From: a virus
IMG/VR virus record: IMGVR_UViG_3300042335_000092
Span: 1 to 31,487 of that record
Strand: one strand, 5' to 3'
Length of the DNA stretch: 31,487 bases
Shown here: piece after piece, positions 3,424 to 19,325 of the stretch
How the letters are laid out: each line of letters opens with the position of its first letter
Position numbering within the stretch: position 1 is the first letter of the stretch
Notes under the pieces: model-generated
Seen by the model: only the letters and a program-made list of their open reading frames with translations
Told to the model about the DNA's origin: nothing
Database searches by the model: none
Program-made: the position numbers and the translations under genes

Positions 3424-3519
3424 ATGAACAATAAAACAGAACTGATCGAGGCAATCCATTCAGGCACACGCTTGAGGCTTTTGGACATTAAGCAGCCCAC
3501 AGGCCAGCCAACTGCTTGA
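3424..3519 (+). CDS. Possible 31-residue protein downstream of the regulator
   Basis: ATG 3424 lies 8 bases after the regulator's TGA in an A-rich leader. The frame reads MNNKTELIEAIHSGTRLRLL and ends at TGA 3517-3519. It overlaps the 3' end of the convergent terminase gene by 32 bases. The amphipathic, charged composition and tight spacing suggest a real small gene, but its length gives little statistical support. Confidence 0.35.
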   Translation: MNNKTELIEAIHSGTRLRLLDIKQPTGQPTA

Positions 3520-5296
3520 ATCTCTTCTGCAATTGGTTTGGTTTGTCTGGTGTGTGATTTCCAGGCTTGTCGATACTTGAGAGGCCGTGCTTCTCGCGGC
3601 AAAGCTCAATTAGAACGCAGGCGCTATCATAAACGTCCGGCGACTTACCTGTTCTGCGCTTCATATCGACTTTGGACTCAACCTTGATGCGTGATCCTCC
3701 ATCAAGCGCCTTGTTATCCTTGTACTTACGAACAGTCATCTCGTCAGCCATCTCCTTTGTGATGTTGCGTAGCTGATCGCAGCGAATCATTTCTTTACCG
3801 ACCGACCAAAGTTCGCTAACTCTGTTAGCATACCTTACGCTTGATTTCTCACGATCCGCAGCAGACACAGGACGATCCGAAGCCTTGCCACCGAAGTCCA
3901 CACGCAAGAAGGTGTTGCCCCACTTGCTCCACATGGCATCAGCAAAAGTCTTGCCACCACCAGCAGACGCATCAATTGCCACATCCTTGATGTCGATTCC
4001 ATCCTTCTTGCAGATGTCTTTGATTTGGTCAATAAGCTGCGTAGTGCGGTCAACGTCGCGTTTGCTGGCGTCGTCATTGAGAAGGATATGGCGCTCAAAC
4101 TTGAGTCGTTTCTTGCCATCAGTGCAGATGCCAATGGAGCCAATAGTCATCACCGTTTTGTCACCACCACTGGTATAGGAAAGGTCGATGCCACACACCT
4201 TCGTTGGAATCCCTTGCCACACGCAATCCTTGGGCGTCTTGATGATTTCAGCTGGCGAATAAATATTGTCATCGTCTCCATCAAGCAAGAACGCACCAAG
4301 GACACCACGCCAGTAAGCTCTTGTATGCTGACCTAGCTTCTCTCGCTTTTCTTCCAACATCTCACGAGTCATCAAGAACGGGTATATCGTTTTACCCTCA
4401 ATGATGTTTGGCGATGTCTCGTTATTGATGCGGATGACGTGAGCGCCCTTCCCTTTCCATTCATCCCAATCTGGGTTGTAGCTGTCCCATCCTCCAGGAA
4501 CAGGTTCACAAAGCTGCCCAAAGGTATCAAATGGCGAATTGGCGTTGGCTAGAGCGATAAGCTGGACGTTCGGATTCTGCGTCAAGTTTTCCTCAAACGT
4601 ATTGATGATGGATGGCGAAAGTTCAGCGCACTCGTCCAGAACAACAATGAGTTTACCGCCAGGGCCATGCTTCTGACCTCGAATGGCGCGTGAGGATTCA
4701 GCGGCTTTGCTTTGCTCACCTGGAAACAAACGGATGCCGTATTCGTCCATTACAACGCCAGTGTTCAAGTCCATCGACTTGATGCAGTGAGAAGACTCAA
4801 CCAGCTTTCCAGGAGGCGCTCCTGCCATACCGTTGAAGTAACGAGTGATCTGGCCCCAGATACGCCCCATCGAGTCCTTGATAGTCGTAGTATTGACGAG
4901 AACGACGTTCTTGTATGGATTTGACAGCCACAAAACGAGGCAATAAACGGCAAACAAACCAGTCTTACCGCCGGAACCACCGGATGAGATCGCGAGACGC
5001 TTATTCTCAAATGCAGCCTTTGCCATCTTGATCGCCCAAGGATGCCACATGAACGGAGTTCGACTGCCTGGGTAGTTCCAGATGAGATTTACCGCGTTGA
5101 CGAAATGAATCCACGCAGGTTTCCCCTGTGGATTTTTATCGCCTTTCCAACCGAATAACGAACCCGTTGGACACTTGAGGAAGATCAACTCGACATCCAG
5201 TTGATTGCCGAATTGATGATCAAACTTGATGCCGTATGTCTCGATTGGTCCTCGCGTTAGTTGGACTACGCGAGATTTTTGGGGCTTCTGCTTCAT
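3488..5296 (-). CDS. terL: Terminase large subunit (ATPase and nuclease)
   Basis: This encodes 602 residues, a normal length for the family. It pumps DNA into the prohead at the portal and cuts the packaged DNA. The N-terminal ATPase shows a Walker A-like loop SSGGSGGKT (104-112) and Walker B LIVVLDE (216-222, catalytic Glu 222). The C-terminal RNase H-like nuclease shows Asp 371 in GIDLSY, Asp 442 in VAIDASAGGG and Asp 554/557 in SPDVYDSA, the expected acidic residues. It is separated from the portal/capsid genes by the tail and lysis modules. No small terminase gene is recognised nearby. The start ATG lies in a short spacer divergent from a plus-strand gene. Confidence 0.95.
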   Translation of the reverse strand: MKQKPQKSRVVQLTRGPIETYGIKFDHQFGNQLDVELIFLKCPTGSLFGWKGDKNPQGKPAWIHFVNAVNLIWNYPGSRTPFMWHPWAIKMAKAAFENKRLAISSGGSGGKTGLFAVYCLVLWLSNPYKNVVLVNTTTIKDSMGRIWGQITRYFNGMAGAPPGKLVESSHCIKSMDLNTGVVMDEYGIRLFPGEQSKAAESSRAIRGQKHGPGGKLIVVLDECAELSPSIINTFEENLTQNPNVQLIALANANSPFDTFGQLCEPVPGGWDSYNPDWDEWKGKGAHVIRINNETSPNIIEGKTIYPFLMTREMLEEKREKLGQHTRAYWRGVLGAFLLDGDDDNIYSPAEIIKTPKDCVWQGIPTKVCGIDLSYTSGGDKTVMTIGSIGICTDGKKRLKFERHILLNDDASKRDVDRTTQLIDQIKDICKKDGIDIKDVAIDASAGGGKTFADAMWSKWGNTFLRVDFGGKASDRPVSAADREKSSVRYANRVSELWSVGKEMIRCDQLRNITKEMADEMTVRKYKDNKALDGGSRIKVESKVDMKRRTGKSPDVYDSACVLIELCREKHGLSSIDKPGNHTPDKPNQLQKRFKQLAGLWAA

Positions 5297-7245: not shown

Positions 7246-9231
7246 TTAATCGACAAAGATTGGGAACGTGACCGTTCTTCCGTATCGCTTGTCAAAGATA
7301 AAGCCAGTCTGTGATGGTGGCTCGTAAGGTGCCTTGATAGCGATGGAGTAAGCATTGAATCCAATTAGACTCCCGTTGCATACCCACTTTGGATTCTGCT
7401 GGCTTTGATGCCAATGACCAAAGATGTCTAGGTCTGCTGGAACACCCTTGTTCCACGAAGAAATGGCCTTCTCAACTGGGATGGTCAATCCACCAACGCC
7501 ACCTTGGTATTGTAAGCCGTCTCCGTGATGAATACGGAGCGTCTTGCCATAGAGGTCCAGAAGCAAATGGTAGCCGTCAGAAACGTGCCAAGAAGCCTTG
7601 TCGGCAAGATGCTTCGCCATTGTTTTGTAAAGCATCCATTCGTAGCTGTTGGCAGCGCCTGTAGCATGACGTGGCTTGCGAGTCGTATTGCCACTGATAA
7701 ACGGAATGCCGTTACGTCGTGTAATTAAAGCTCCGTTTTTTACAGTACCGCACCAAATCACGCCGCTATAATACTCTTGCTTGATAGAGTCTGACCATTT
7801 GTTGATTTGATATGGCCTATTATTAGAGCGAACGCTCAACACATAATTTCCGCGATTATCAATTCTCAAACGCGAAGAAATTCCATTCATCATCAATAAT
7901 GCCTGAAGGCTTTCCAACGATGTTTTATCTTTATAAATTTGACCAAATCCAGATTTGCACAAGCTGCCATCAGCCTGAAATACAGTTTGAAGAAAAATCT
8001 CCACCTGTCTCTGGGAGAGATTGAACATCCAGTCTGGTAATTGACCCTTTGATGGAAGTAATAAAGAAAGTTCTGGGCTGTGTTGTAAAGAAATATTAAA
8101 CACATGTTCAGCTTTTGACGTTAAGCATTGAACTCCATTAATAACTGGCGGTGGCCTATGTCTAGTATATTCCGTGTACAATAAATCAACAGATTTAAGT
8201 AGTTTGGTTATTTCTTCAATTCCATCTTCTTTAGATTGATAAATTCTGTAATAAGTACTTCCTTTTTGACTTGCAATAGAACCATCTGTCCAAATCCAAG
8301 CTAAAATACGAAGCATATCATCAGATACACTATTTAGATCTTCTTTAGATCCAGTCGCTGTCTTTGGAAATCCCCTCCAGGCAAAGCTGTCAGACGCAAC
8401 CGGCTTGAGGTCTTTCATTTCCTCAAAATGGCGCTTTCCAGTTTTGAGCGATTCAACAACCATCCTATGACCTGGAGTAACTTTAAAATCCATTGTGGCA
8501 GTTTTACCAACAAACATATATCCATCCCACAGATCTACATAAACATCATCAAGTGGTTGCCATTCTGCGGCACCGGTTTCCATGTTGTATGTTGCAGCAA
8601 TGTCTCCAACCTCAATTTCATTGTATTTCTTCCACCCATTTCTTGTTAGAAGCTCTGTTTCTGAATCATGACAACGACCATGGTTGCCGAATACACATGG
8701 AATCACAATTTCTCCAAAGTGCTTGGACAGCAATTCAATCCCACTGGCGATCTGATCTTGAAGCCACAACACTGTCTGAGTTGGAGACAAGGCGTTATTT
8801 TCCAACAGTTCCTCGTGGATGTAGCCAGTCATTAAATCGCCACCCAAAATCAGTACAAGACGATCAATTTTGGCACCATGGCGTTGAATCTTCGCCATGC
8901 GAATAATCGAGTTCCAGAAGCGATTGATTCGCTGTTCAGCAATATCAAGATTGAACTCGTTGAGGTTGTTGATGGTTTTTCCTTCAACCGTTTCCTCGAC
9001 ATGCCAATCTGATGCAACGGCTACAAAAGTTGCTTCGGAGTCAAAATCGCTTACCGCATTGATCTTGGAAGCAACAGGCTTAACGCCACCGATTCCAAGT
9101 GCGATATTAAGCTGATTGTCCTTTTCTGAAATGACGTTGAGCAGCTTTTTACGCTCACTCTCAAAGTCGGCCACAGTCCTCTTGTGGCGAATCTCCTGGG
9201 TTTCATGAACAGCGGTGGACCAGTTTTTCAT
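7246..9231 (-). CDS. Calcineurin-like metallophosphoesterase interrupted by an intein
   Basis: The precursor has 661 residues: N-extein 1-186, intein 187-515, C-extein 516-661. The spliced product would have 332 residues and carries all metallophosphoesterase metal motifs: D-x-H (Asp 75, His 77 in SDWHVEE), GGD (130-132 in LILGGDLM), GNH (182-184 in FGNHGR), a His pair in RIHHGDG (568-569) and GHWH (605-608). The enzyme would use two metal ions to cut phosphoester bonds; relatives include SbcD/Mre11-type nucleases and nucleotide phosphatases, and several phages carry such genes of unproven role. The first 45 residues form a charged helical segment before the catalytic fold. The intein sits right after the GNHGR active-site loop, so activity should require splicing. 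Confidence 0.9.
   Translation of the reverse strand: MKNWSTAVHETQEIRHKRTVADFESERKKLLNVISEKDNQLNIALGIGGVKPVASKINAVSDFDSEATFVAVASDWHVEETVEGKTINNLNEFNLDIAEQRINRFWNSIIRMAKIQRHGAKIDRLVLILGGDLMTGYIHEELLENNALSPTQTVLWLQDQIASGIELLSKHFGEIVIPCVFGNHGRCHDSETELLTRNGWKKYNEIEVGDIAATYNMETGAAEWQPLDDVYVDLWDGYMFVGKTATMDFKVTPGHRMVVESLKTGKRHFEEMKDLKPVASDSFAWRGFPKTATGSKEDLNSVSDDMLRILAWIWTDGSIASQKGSTYYRIYQSKEDGIEEITKLLKSVDLLYTEYTRHRPPPVINGVQCLTSKAEHVFNISLQHSPELSLLLPSKGQLPDWMFNLSQRQVEIFLQTVFQADGSLCKSGFGQIYKDKTSLESLQALLMMNGISSRLRIDNRGNYVLSVRSNNRPYQINKWSDSIKQEYYSGVIWCGTVKNGALITRRNGIPFISGNTTRKPRHATGAANSYEWMLYKTMAKHLADKASWHVSDGYHLLLDLYGKTLRIHHGDGLQYQGGVGGLTIPVEKAISSWNKGVPADLDIFGHWHQSQQNPKWVCNGSLIGFNAYSIAIKAPYEPPSQTGFIFDKRYGRTVTFPIFVD
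7687..8673 (-). mobile_element. Intein with LAGLIDADG homing endonuclease
   Basis: The element has 329 residues. Cys 187 starts block A (CHDSETELLTRNGWKKY), and block B contains the T-x-x-H motif as VTPGH. Two LAGLIDADG-type helices are seen: LRILAWIWTDGS (intein positions 121-132) and VEIFLQTVFQADGSL (224-238), each with its Asp. Block F/G is WCGTVKNGALITRRNG ... FISGN, ending in Asn before extein Thr 516. The penultimate residue is Gly instead of the usual His, a known variant. The DNA between about 7.7 and 8.4 kb looks more A/T-rich than the flanking exteins, consistent with separate origin. Whether the endonuclease still cuts is not known. Confidence 0.93.
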
Positions 9232-16953: not shown

Positions 16954-18132
16954 TTAAGAGCAGGCGGTGTTCACAACCCAGTTGGTTGGGCAGCGACGGA
17001 AGCGGAGGATTGCACCGTATTCAGGAATCACTGGCTGAGCACCGTAGGCGAACTTGCCACGGAAGAAGCCAATGTTTTCGTCCACGTTGCAAGTGCGGTC
17101 ATACTTGTTGATCCAGTTGAATCGGCCAAGGTAGTCCTGAGGAGCGAATTTCATTTCCCCAGCGGAAAGCTGAGAATCAGGAATCGCAAACTTCACAACC
17201 TGCTTGGTGGCGATGATCGCATCTTCGTATTGAGCCGTGAAGTAGGCTGGATTGACGTTCGCAGGATCACCCTTGTTGGTAGCAGGGAGCATGAAGGGAA
17301 CGCGCACCCAAGCACCACCGACAAGATTCCAGCGAGCAGCAGCGATGTCGATGGTCATCTTGAAGCCGTTGAGGCTGTCAAAGGAACCAGGGGCATTGTT
17401 GAGCGCACGGACCTTTTCGGAGTCCCAGCGGATGTTCTGGATGGTCACGCCATCGGTAGCGAGCGTCTGCTGAGCTTCATCGGAGAGGACGAGTGGCAGA
17501 AGAGGCTGACCCATCTTGTTGACGGAGAGGCCGTTCTGAATGTCTGCTCCATTGCGGATGAGGCTGTAGCGGATGTAATCAAGCATCTCGCGCTTCAGGG
17601 TGCCAATCGTTCCAGTGGCGAACGAAGCGGAGTTGACCGTAAGGCCAGCGTCAGCGACGTACTTGTTGGAGCAGATGGAGGTGAACTGATCGCGGCGTTG
17701 ATTTTCCCACAGGTAGCGGGAGTATCCACGAAGGTTACGGATGAAGGCAGCAGCCTGCTGAACGATGTTGTAGCTCATACGAGCATCTTCGATACAGAAG
17801 GGAGGGCTTTCGACAGCCGCAATCTTGAGTTCCATCGAGCGGCGAGTCTGCGAAGGATAGATTGTGGACACAGGAGGCTGGCAAGAACCGCCTTCGTCAC
17901 CGCTACCGCCGTCATTGAAGCCGTAGGTAGTGAACGTGACATCGGAACCGAACGGCATCGCACGCTCAAATGTCAGGAAGTTCGGGGTATCGCCCATACC
18001 ATTGGGCCAGCGGGAACGCGGAACAATAGAATCGTTCTGCCAAGGATTGCTGATGAATTGCTTCTCGCTCGGATCGTCGACGATCCGGTTCGATTCTGCT
18101 TCCAAAAACTGATTAATATCTGTACATGCCAT
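16954..18132 (-). CDS. Major capsid protein
   Basis: This encodes 392 residues, a common size for HK97-fold capsid proteins. The identification rests on position (portal, scaffold, then this gene), size, absence of enzyme motifs, and the general pattern: N-terminal arm (MACTDINQFLEAESNRIVDD), a long helix around FIRNLRGYSRYLWENQRRDQF comparable to the spine helix, a central domain with QPLLPLVLSDEAQ, and a C-terminal beta segment (IPEYGAILRFRRCPTNWV). Seven or more cysteines are present. No leader cleavage site can be predicted. Base composition looks more G/C-rich and more regular than in neighbours, consistent with high expression. It is closed by a terminator. Confidence 0.85.
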   Translation of the reverse strand: MACTDINQFLEAESNRIVDDPSEKQFISNPWQNDSIVPRSRWPNGMGDTPNFLTFERAMPFGSDVTFTTYGFNDGGSGDEGGSCQPPVSTIYPSQTRRSMELKIAAVESPPFCIEDARMSYNIVQQAAAFIRNLRGYSRYLWENQRRDQFTSICSNKYVADAGLTVNSASFATGTIGTLKREMLDYIRYSLIRNGADIQNGLSVNKMGQPLLPLVLSDEAQQTLATDGVTIQNIRWDSEKVRALNNAPGSFDSLNGFKMTIDIAAARWNLVGGAWVRVPFMLPATNKGDPANVNPAYFTAQYEDAIIATKQVVKFAIPDSQLSAGEMKFAPQDYLGRFNWINKYDRTCNVDENIGFFRGKFAYGAQPVIPEYGAILRFRRCPTNWVVNTACS

Positions 18133-18398: not shown

Positions 18399-19325
18399 TT
18401 ATGCGGAGTAAGGCATTTTATCCCTTTTCTCTCTATTTTCCCACCACCACATCGGACGCAAATTGGAAAAATGAGCAAGTCTTATCACATCCTCTTCCGT
18501 TTTTGCAGAAGAAATTGGAATGATATGATCAATCTCAACCATTGAGGTTCCGGTATGATTCTTCTCTTGAAATGATTCCCACGTCATTCCGTTATAAAAT
18601 TGCGACTCAATATGAGCTTGGAGAGTTTCCCAATCACAACCAAGAATAATAGAAGTTTTGCAGTTTTTTCTAAATCCAAAACGAGAAATAGCATATAATG
18701 TTGATCTGCGCACTTTGCTAATCAGAGCATATTTTGGATCAGATGCATATTTGGCCTTTGCCCATTTTTTCAGCTTTTCACGGTCTCTAGCCCTGTTGGC
18801 TTTGTTGTATGCTTTGAGGTGCTCCTTACTTTGTTCTCTCCAATCACGAGTGGCCTGATAACGCTTCTCCTTGTGCTTCTCCCTGCTGGCTCGATGAGAC
18901 GCCTTAAATTTTTCAGGATTCTCTTCCTGCCATTTCTTCGCTCTCAACCTCTCAGCCTCTACATTATCCTTGGCGTACCTCTTTCTAGCCTGAGTCTGTT
19001 TATCACAACGTCGCTTAAACTCGTCAGTAGTCACCCAAACCTCACTGCCGACATTGGAATACGAGAAAAAGATCATTCCGTCATCTCGCGTCTCCCCGCG
19101 TTTCCGAGGATTCTCCGGTTTAACAGCTTTTGCCAACTTGCGCTTTCTGTAATCGTCATTGCGACGATCTGAATCTGCCTGCCGCTTCTTGGCGGTTTCC
19201 ACTGGTAGCCATATTTCACGGCCATCTCCTCTCATTCCCCAAAAGACCTTACCATCTTCGCGGGTGTCCCAACGCTTCTTCTTGACCTTATCGTCCCCAT
19301 CAGTGATAATAATTTCATTCTGCAT
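18399..19325 (-). CDS. Free-standing HNH homing endonuclease
   Basis: This encodes 308 residues. The C-terminal HNH domain has VEIDHIIPIS (Asp 266, His 267), FSNLRPMWW (Asn 288) and ENREKRDK (Asn 297 and following basic residues). The N-terminal half holds two related beta modules (WDTREDGKVFWGMRGDGREIW and TRDDGMIFFSYSNVGSEVW), probably DNA-binding repeats, then a long Arg/Lys/Glu-rich helix. Such enzymes cut phage genomes lacking the insertion and spread by repair. It splits the scaffold-capsid pair, a common target. The DNA looks more A/T-rich than the head genes, pointing to separate acquisition. No intron boundaries are evident around it. Confidence 0.88.
   Translation of the reverse strand: MQNEIIITDGDDKVKKKRWDTREDGKVFWGMRGDGREIWLPVETAKKRQADSDRRNDDYRKRKLAKAVKPENPRKRGETRDDGMIFFSYSNVGSEVWVTTDEFKRRCDKQTQARKRYAKDNVEAERLRAKKWQEENPEKFKASHRASREKHKEKRYQATRDWREQSKEHLKAYNKANRARDREKLKKWAKAKYASDPKYALISKVRRSTLYAISRFGFRKNCKTSIILGCDWETLQAHIESQFYNGMTWESFQEKNHTGTSMVEIDHIIPISSAKTEEDVIRLAHFSNLRPMWWWENREKRDKMPYSA

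Follow-up and report, generated by a model that had tools for sequence, protein, structure and literature searches.

Background

The closest tested relative of the element described here is the RDF intein in gp51 of mycobacteriophage Bethlehem, which has a phosphoesterase host and a glycine as its penultimate residue. Splicing has been shown experimentally for this intein, where it is complete and already done at time zero; with histidine in place of the glycine it is slower, taking more than 5 h to reach about 50% (PMC5050341). It and the RDF intein of mycobacteriophage MrGordo (L087) are, like the present intein, class 1 and LAGLIDADG-type, with Cys1 and a penultimate Gly, and both are inserted in the GNH loop of a phosphoesterase (GNHD/S in MrGordo, the slash marking the junction). 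The MrGordo intein likewise lacks a His at the corresponding position of block F. It is only 25% identical to the present one, however, and differs in its host (phrog_221 rather than phrog_284), its junction (GNHD rather than GNHGR) and its +1 residue (Ser rather than Thr).

An intein in Rheinheimera phage Barba18A (L088) likewise interrupts a phosphoesterase GNH loop (GNH/C) and ends in TGN, but it is 24% identical, has a phrog_547 host and another junction, and is in a record that annotates the phosphoesterase only. The highest-identity full-length match in cultured phages, at 29.4% over 330 aa, is the intein of mycobacteriophage Bobi (H41), which has a DNA methyltransferase as its host, unlike the intein studied here. 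A parallel of another sort is provided by the haloarchaeal MCM-a and MCM-d inteins, where there are also two neighbouring inteins per gene and where the +1 residue of the empty allele also blocks splicing, so that for MCM-d co-conversion must change a +1 Pro to Ser (PMC10643990). That system differs in being an archaeal helicase with Pro rather than Asn at +1, and it has been tested in vivo (PMC10643990).

The interrupted phosphoesterase gene

The sequence analysed, referred to as the window, is the whole 31,487 base stretch of the IMG/VR virus record IMGVR_UViG_3300042335_000092. A megablast search with 25 kb of it against cultured phages gave no match. The gene and the features of its intein are as follows.

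7246..9231, minus strand: precursor ORF of phosphoesterase plus intein, 661 aa; phrog_284 match, E 6.5e-37
8674..9231, minus strand: N-extein, aa 1-186, with a long N-terminal helix and motifs I (DWH), II (GGD) and III (GNH)
7687..8673, minus strand: intein, 329 aa (aa 187-515); precisely absent from L009-L022
7246..7686, minus strand: C-extein, aa 516-661 and stop, with motifs IV (HHGD) and V (GHWH)
8674..8688, minus strand: motif III GNHGR (aa 182-186), abutting the junction; G182, N183, H184 and R186 invariant in 20 homologues
8635..8673, minus strand: intein block A, nucleophile Cys1; C1 invariant in the intein alignment
8455..8496, minus strand: intein block B, TPGH (T66, H69); T66 and H69 invariant
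8278..8313, minus strand: LAGLIDADG motif 1, catalytic-type Asp130; PF14528; conserved in L006
7963..8001, minus strand: LAGLIDADG motif 2, catalytic-type Asp235; D235 and G236 invariant in 7 inteins
7687..7764, minus strand: intein blocks F and G, ending ISGN, penultimate Gly328; from the intein alignment
7684..7686, minus strand: Thr (ACG) at +1; most near-identical empty alleles have Asn (AAC)
8674..8703, minus strand: hypervariable 30 bp tract beside the homing site; 21.4% diversity, gene median 5.1%
7371..7372, minus strand: second intein site b (CNG/S), empty in the window; occupied in L008, L023 and L024

The intein span agrees to the base with that of a preliminary description, between GNHGR and T, and taking out its 329 residues leaves a joined extein of 332 aa. 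The intein-free homologues that had been proposed as a check are plentiful: the uninterrupted gene is found in viral contigs L009-L022 and L037, which reach 97.0% DNA identity to the joined exteins, and in over 60 other homologues the sequence runs unbroken through the insertion site. Since intein-free alleles of the same gene exist with DNA 91.7-97.0% identical to the joined exteins of the window, the identification of the intein is not due to chance. The junctions first read, GNHGR/C and GN/T, stand, with the correction that the near-identical empty alleles have GNHGR-NTRK or GNHSR-TTRK at the site. The exact joined motif GNHGR-TTRK is present in L039, and GNHGR-TT in most of the more distant homologues.

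Elsewhere in the window, an ORF at 18399-19325 (minus strand) resembles HNH-type nucleases, with a PF13395 match (E 5.8e-4) just under the cut-off. It is directly upstream of a 392-aa ORF (16954-18132), maybe a capsid gene, and is possibly a free-standing homing endonuclease. A 602-aa ORF at 3488-5296 (minus strand) has no PHROGs or Pfam match; it contains a P-loop-like SSGGSGGKTG motif and is likely to be the large terminase.

Motifs and class of the intein

All of the intein blocks and both LAGLIDADG motifs noted previously are present, and they are conserved in a same-site intein of 46% identity. Block A contains C1 (CHDSETELLTRNGW), the LAGLIDADG motifs read WIWTDG (D130) and VFQADG (D235), block F is GVIWCGTVKNGALITRRNG (GVIWCGTV), with no block F His, and block G is ISGN/T. 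The Pfam LAGLIDADG_3 family (PF14528) is matched at 29.8 bits against a cut-off of 22.5. In a model of the precursor, the LAGLIDADG domain is nearest to I-DmoI, TliVMA and PI-PfuI (Foldseek E 1e-7 to 1e-9); the splicing-domain part is modelled at low confidence, with pLDDT of about 20-35. The whole protein had no match among PDB sequences by phmmer. A profile search (A1) returned a single match, judged to be chance, and a two-intein profile gave a weak match to the AceL NrdHF intein (E 0.024) among chance TAL-effector matches; the sequences in the seven-intein alignment diverged too much for it to serve as a search query.

The Cys1 nucleophile, the block B TxxH (T66-P-G-H69) and the C-terminal N329 with a +1 Thr are class 1 features; the same-site inteins of L006-L008 have a +1 Ser. 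The usual class 1 penultimate His is replaced by Gly328. This His is usual and is no defining feature in phages, and Gly328 is not taken to exclude class 1, because the experimentally splicing RDF intein also has Gly. Most of the full-length relatives retrieved end in xGN, therefore a penultimate Gly is common in this group of inteins. It had been suggested that the glycine may slow splicing, but the RDF intein shows the opposite, splicing fast with Gly and slowly with His (PMC5050341). Class 3 inteins are defined by a WCT triplet and no nucleophile at position 1 (PMC5050341); class 3 splicing is ruled out here by Cys1, and while block F has WC, position 5 of block G is Ser rather than Thr. 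From its motifs, the insert is a class-1-type intein with a two-motif LAGLIDADG homing endonuclease, for which both splicing and cleavage are predicted.

The host enzyme

The host is a calcineurin-like metallophosphoesterase in which the five motifs DWH, GD, GNH, HHGD and GHWH are intact, all being invariant in 20 homologues. The intein-free protein of L010 matches the phrog_284 'exonuclease' profile over residues 15-331 (E 7e-42), a label that is an annotation, exonuclease activity being only predicted. A model of this L010 protein, with a mean pLDDT of only 67.7, resembles the archaeal phosphodiesterase 1s3l (Z 12.0, 155 residues aligned, 2.9 A), the PolD proofreading subunit DP1 (6t8h; Z 10.7, 214 aligned, 4.1 A) and Mre11/SbcD (Z 10-11). 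Together with the phrog_284 match, these likenesses of the model make DNA or another phosphodiester the likely substrate, and the enzyme is probably a DNA exonuclease or phosphodiesterase. An RDF role is conceivable; against it are the different PHROG family and the lack of a tyrosine-recombinase (PF00589) match in six related 62-68 kb records, a search directed at tyrosine recombinases only.

Residues N183 and H184 of motif III sit 3-4 residues ahead of the junction, confirming the placement of the intein right after the metal-binding GNH motif. Because the intein directly follows this motif, we infer, as was first proposed, that phosphoesterase activity should depend on splicing.

Mobility of the intein

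The intein is more conserved than the gene that carries it. Compared with the window, intein DNA is 99.4% identical in L001, 99.6% in L002 and 99.1% in L004, against 95.1%, 96.0% and 92.7% for the exteins. The same-site inteins of a second phage group, L006-L008, have 100% DNA identity, and the exteins 92.5-95.5%. Between the two carrier groups, the inteins share 46% of residues and the exteins 90%. GC content is 38.6% in the intein and 47.5% in the extein. Among close carriers there are 12 changes in the intein, of which 11 are synonymous and one is nonsynonymous (p 5e-6). On a tree of extein DNA, from which 60 bp on each side of the site were left out, intein presence requires at least five changes, with carriers and empty alleles interleaved; the window itself groups with the empty L010 and L012 (support 97/98). 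The greater uniformity of the intein, this interleaving and the 11:1 ratio of synonymous changes argue for recent spread with function maintained, and on these comparisons the intein is judged to be recently mobile and under purifying selection.

Between the window and the empty L010 there are 30 differences in 996 extein bases, and 10 are clustered in the 24 bp from -21 to +2 of the junction. On either side of that tract the two sequences are identical, over about 165 bp upstream and about 140 bp downstream. This clustering is as expected of a short co-conversion tract. L004 has an intein 99.1% identical to that of the window, yet its adjacent 60 bp upstream are only 80% identical, so either co-conversion tracts vary or the flanks were altered afterwards.

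In the window's clade, no part of the gene varies more than the 30 bp ahead of the junction (21.4%, median 5.1%), even though these bases encode an invariant motif, and among empty alleles alone the figures are 14.0% and 5.5%. The simplest account is co-conversion of donor flanks, to which escape from cleavage may add. A re-coded empty site, AATCACTCAAGGACGAC (GNHSR-TT), is common to three otherwise different genes, L020, L021 and L036, as if the short tract moves alone or an intein was once present.

Class 1 splicing needs a residue of the Thr or Ser kind at +1 and cannot use Asn. All carriers have Thr or Ser there. In the window's clade, 12 of the 17 alleles free of an intein at this site (site a) have Asn, against 2 of 68 outside it (Fisher p 4e-9, a value inflated by shared ancestry), and the Asn, Thr and Ser states need 11 changes on the tree. 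It is conceivable, if rather doubtful, that these features reflect an arms race in which empty alleles have re-coded GNHGR against cleavage (for example GGTCGT to TCAAGG) and repeatedly set +1 to Asn. Since the sister clade shows far less of this hypervariability (19-22% vs 15.4%), resistance is put forward only tentatively. If it were true, an intein arriving without co-conversion onto a +1 Asn would leave the enzyme dead.

Explanations for the intein

The insert is very probably a mobile class-1-type intein that splices out of the GNH loop, homes by means of its LAGLIDADG nuclease and is kept for its own persistence. Having invaded the motif III loop of the phage phosphoesterase, it would be removed through an N-to-S acyl shift at Cys1, transfer of the acyl group to Thr+1 and cyclisation of Asn329. 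Judging by the motifs and the tested relative, the product would be a 332-aa enzyme with GNHGR-TTRK intact. The nuclease is predicted to cut intein-free alleles of co-infecting phages at the site, and repair on the intein-bearing copy would then spread the intein with short flanking DNA that includes the +1 codon, a spread shown by the population genetics. Its role would be its own persistence, the active-site location making imprecise loss harmful. Its presence can be explained without invoking regulation of the enzyme.

The region around the gene is mosaic among phages of this group, and general phage recombination with no nuclease cutting could give the patchy presence of the intein, although the identity of the intein over that of its flanks is less easily explained in this way. 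It is improbable that the intein splices with a dead endonuclease, its distribution arising from ordinary homologous recombination between co-infecting phages alone, as both LAGLIDADG Asp residues are conserved, purifying selection extends across the whole intein, and the intein is more uniform than both flanks, with differences concentrated at the junction.

The preliminary description also held that the intein may delay or condition the enzyme. An insertion beside catalytic residues does tie activity to splicing, and some inteins are stress-responsive, for example that of mycobacterial DnaB (PMC6195587). Near-identical phages nevertheless manage without the intein, its gain and loss are frequent, and the tested Gly-type relative is fully spliced at time zero. 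No evidence for such a role was found, the data showing a mobile element instead, and it is very unlikely that the intein is kept to delay or gate phosphoesterase activity.

A pseudogene disrupted by an intein that is unable to splice, as the non-canonical penultimate Gly and missing block F His might imply, is scarcely credible given that the RDF intein splices with this Gly, that of MrGordo also lacks an aligned block F His, all active-site motifs are intact and the carrier exteins have 94 synonymous to 8 nonsynonymous changes.

A second intein and a recurrent target

The gene has a second intein site that is occupied in some related phages. L023 and L024 have a different intein, of 339 aa, at CNG/S after motif V, with a canonical HN end, and L008 carries both inteins in a 994-aa ORF. 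The position of this second intein (HN/S, at CNG/SLIG) is as follows.

L008, 7846-8862: second intein, 339 aa
L023 and L024, 6874-7890: second intein, 339 aa

Related inteins are found in the same GNH loop of other phage phosphoesterases (MrGordo RDF, GNHD/S; Barba18A, GNH/C; L111, GNHD/C), at motif IV (L126:3001-3117, YIHH/C) and near motif IV (L120:3001-4056, QYAH/C). Others are in apparent tyrosine recombinases (L116:3001-3972 and L119:3001-3999), where they directly follow the active-site HxxRH motif (HTFRH/C and HLLRH/C).

The intein itself belongs to a known kind, and it is the population pattern that is of interest, this being a clear natural case of such a mobile element caught spreading. 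The phrog_284 phosphoesterase family is an addition to the known phage intein hosts, and different phage phosphoesterases have repeatedly been invaded at one catalytic loop (GNH/, GNHD/ and GNHGR/). Related phages have empty, a-only, b-only and a+b alleles side by side, a natural population for measuring homing, resistance and the length of co-conversion; work on these questions has otherwise relied mostly on systems like haloarchaeal MCM and T4.
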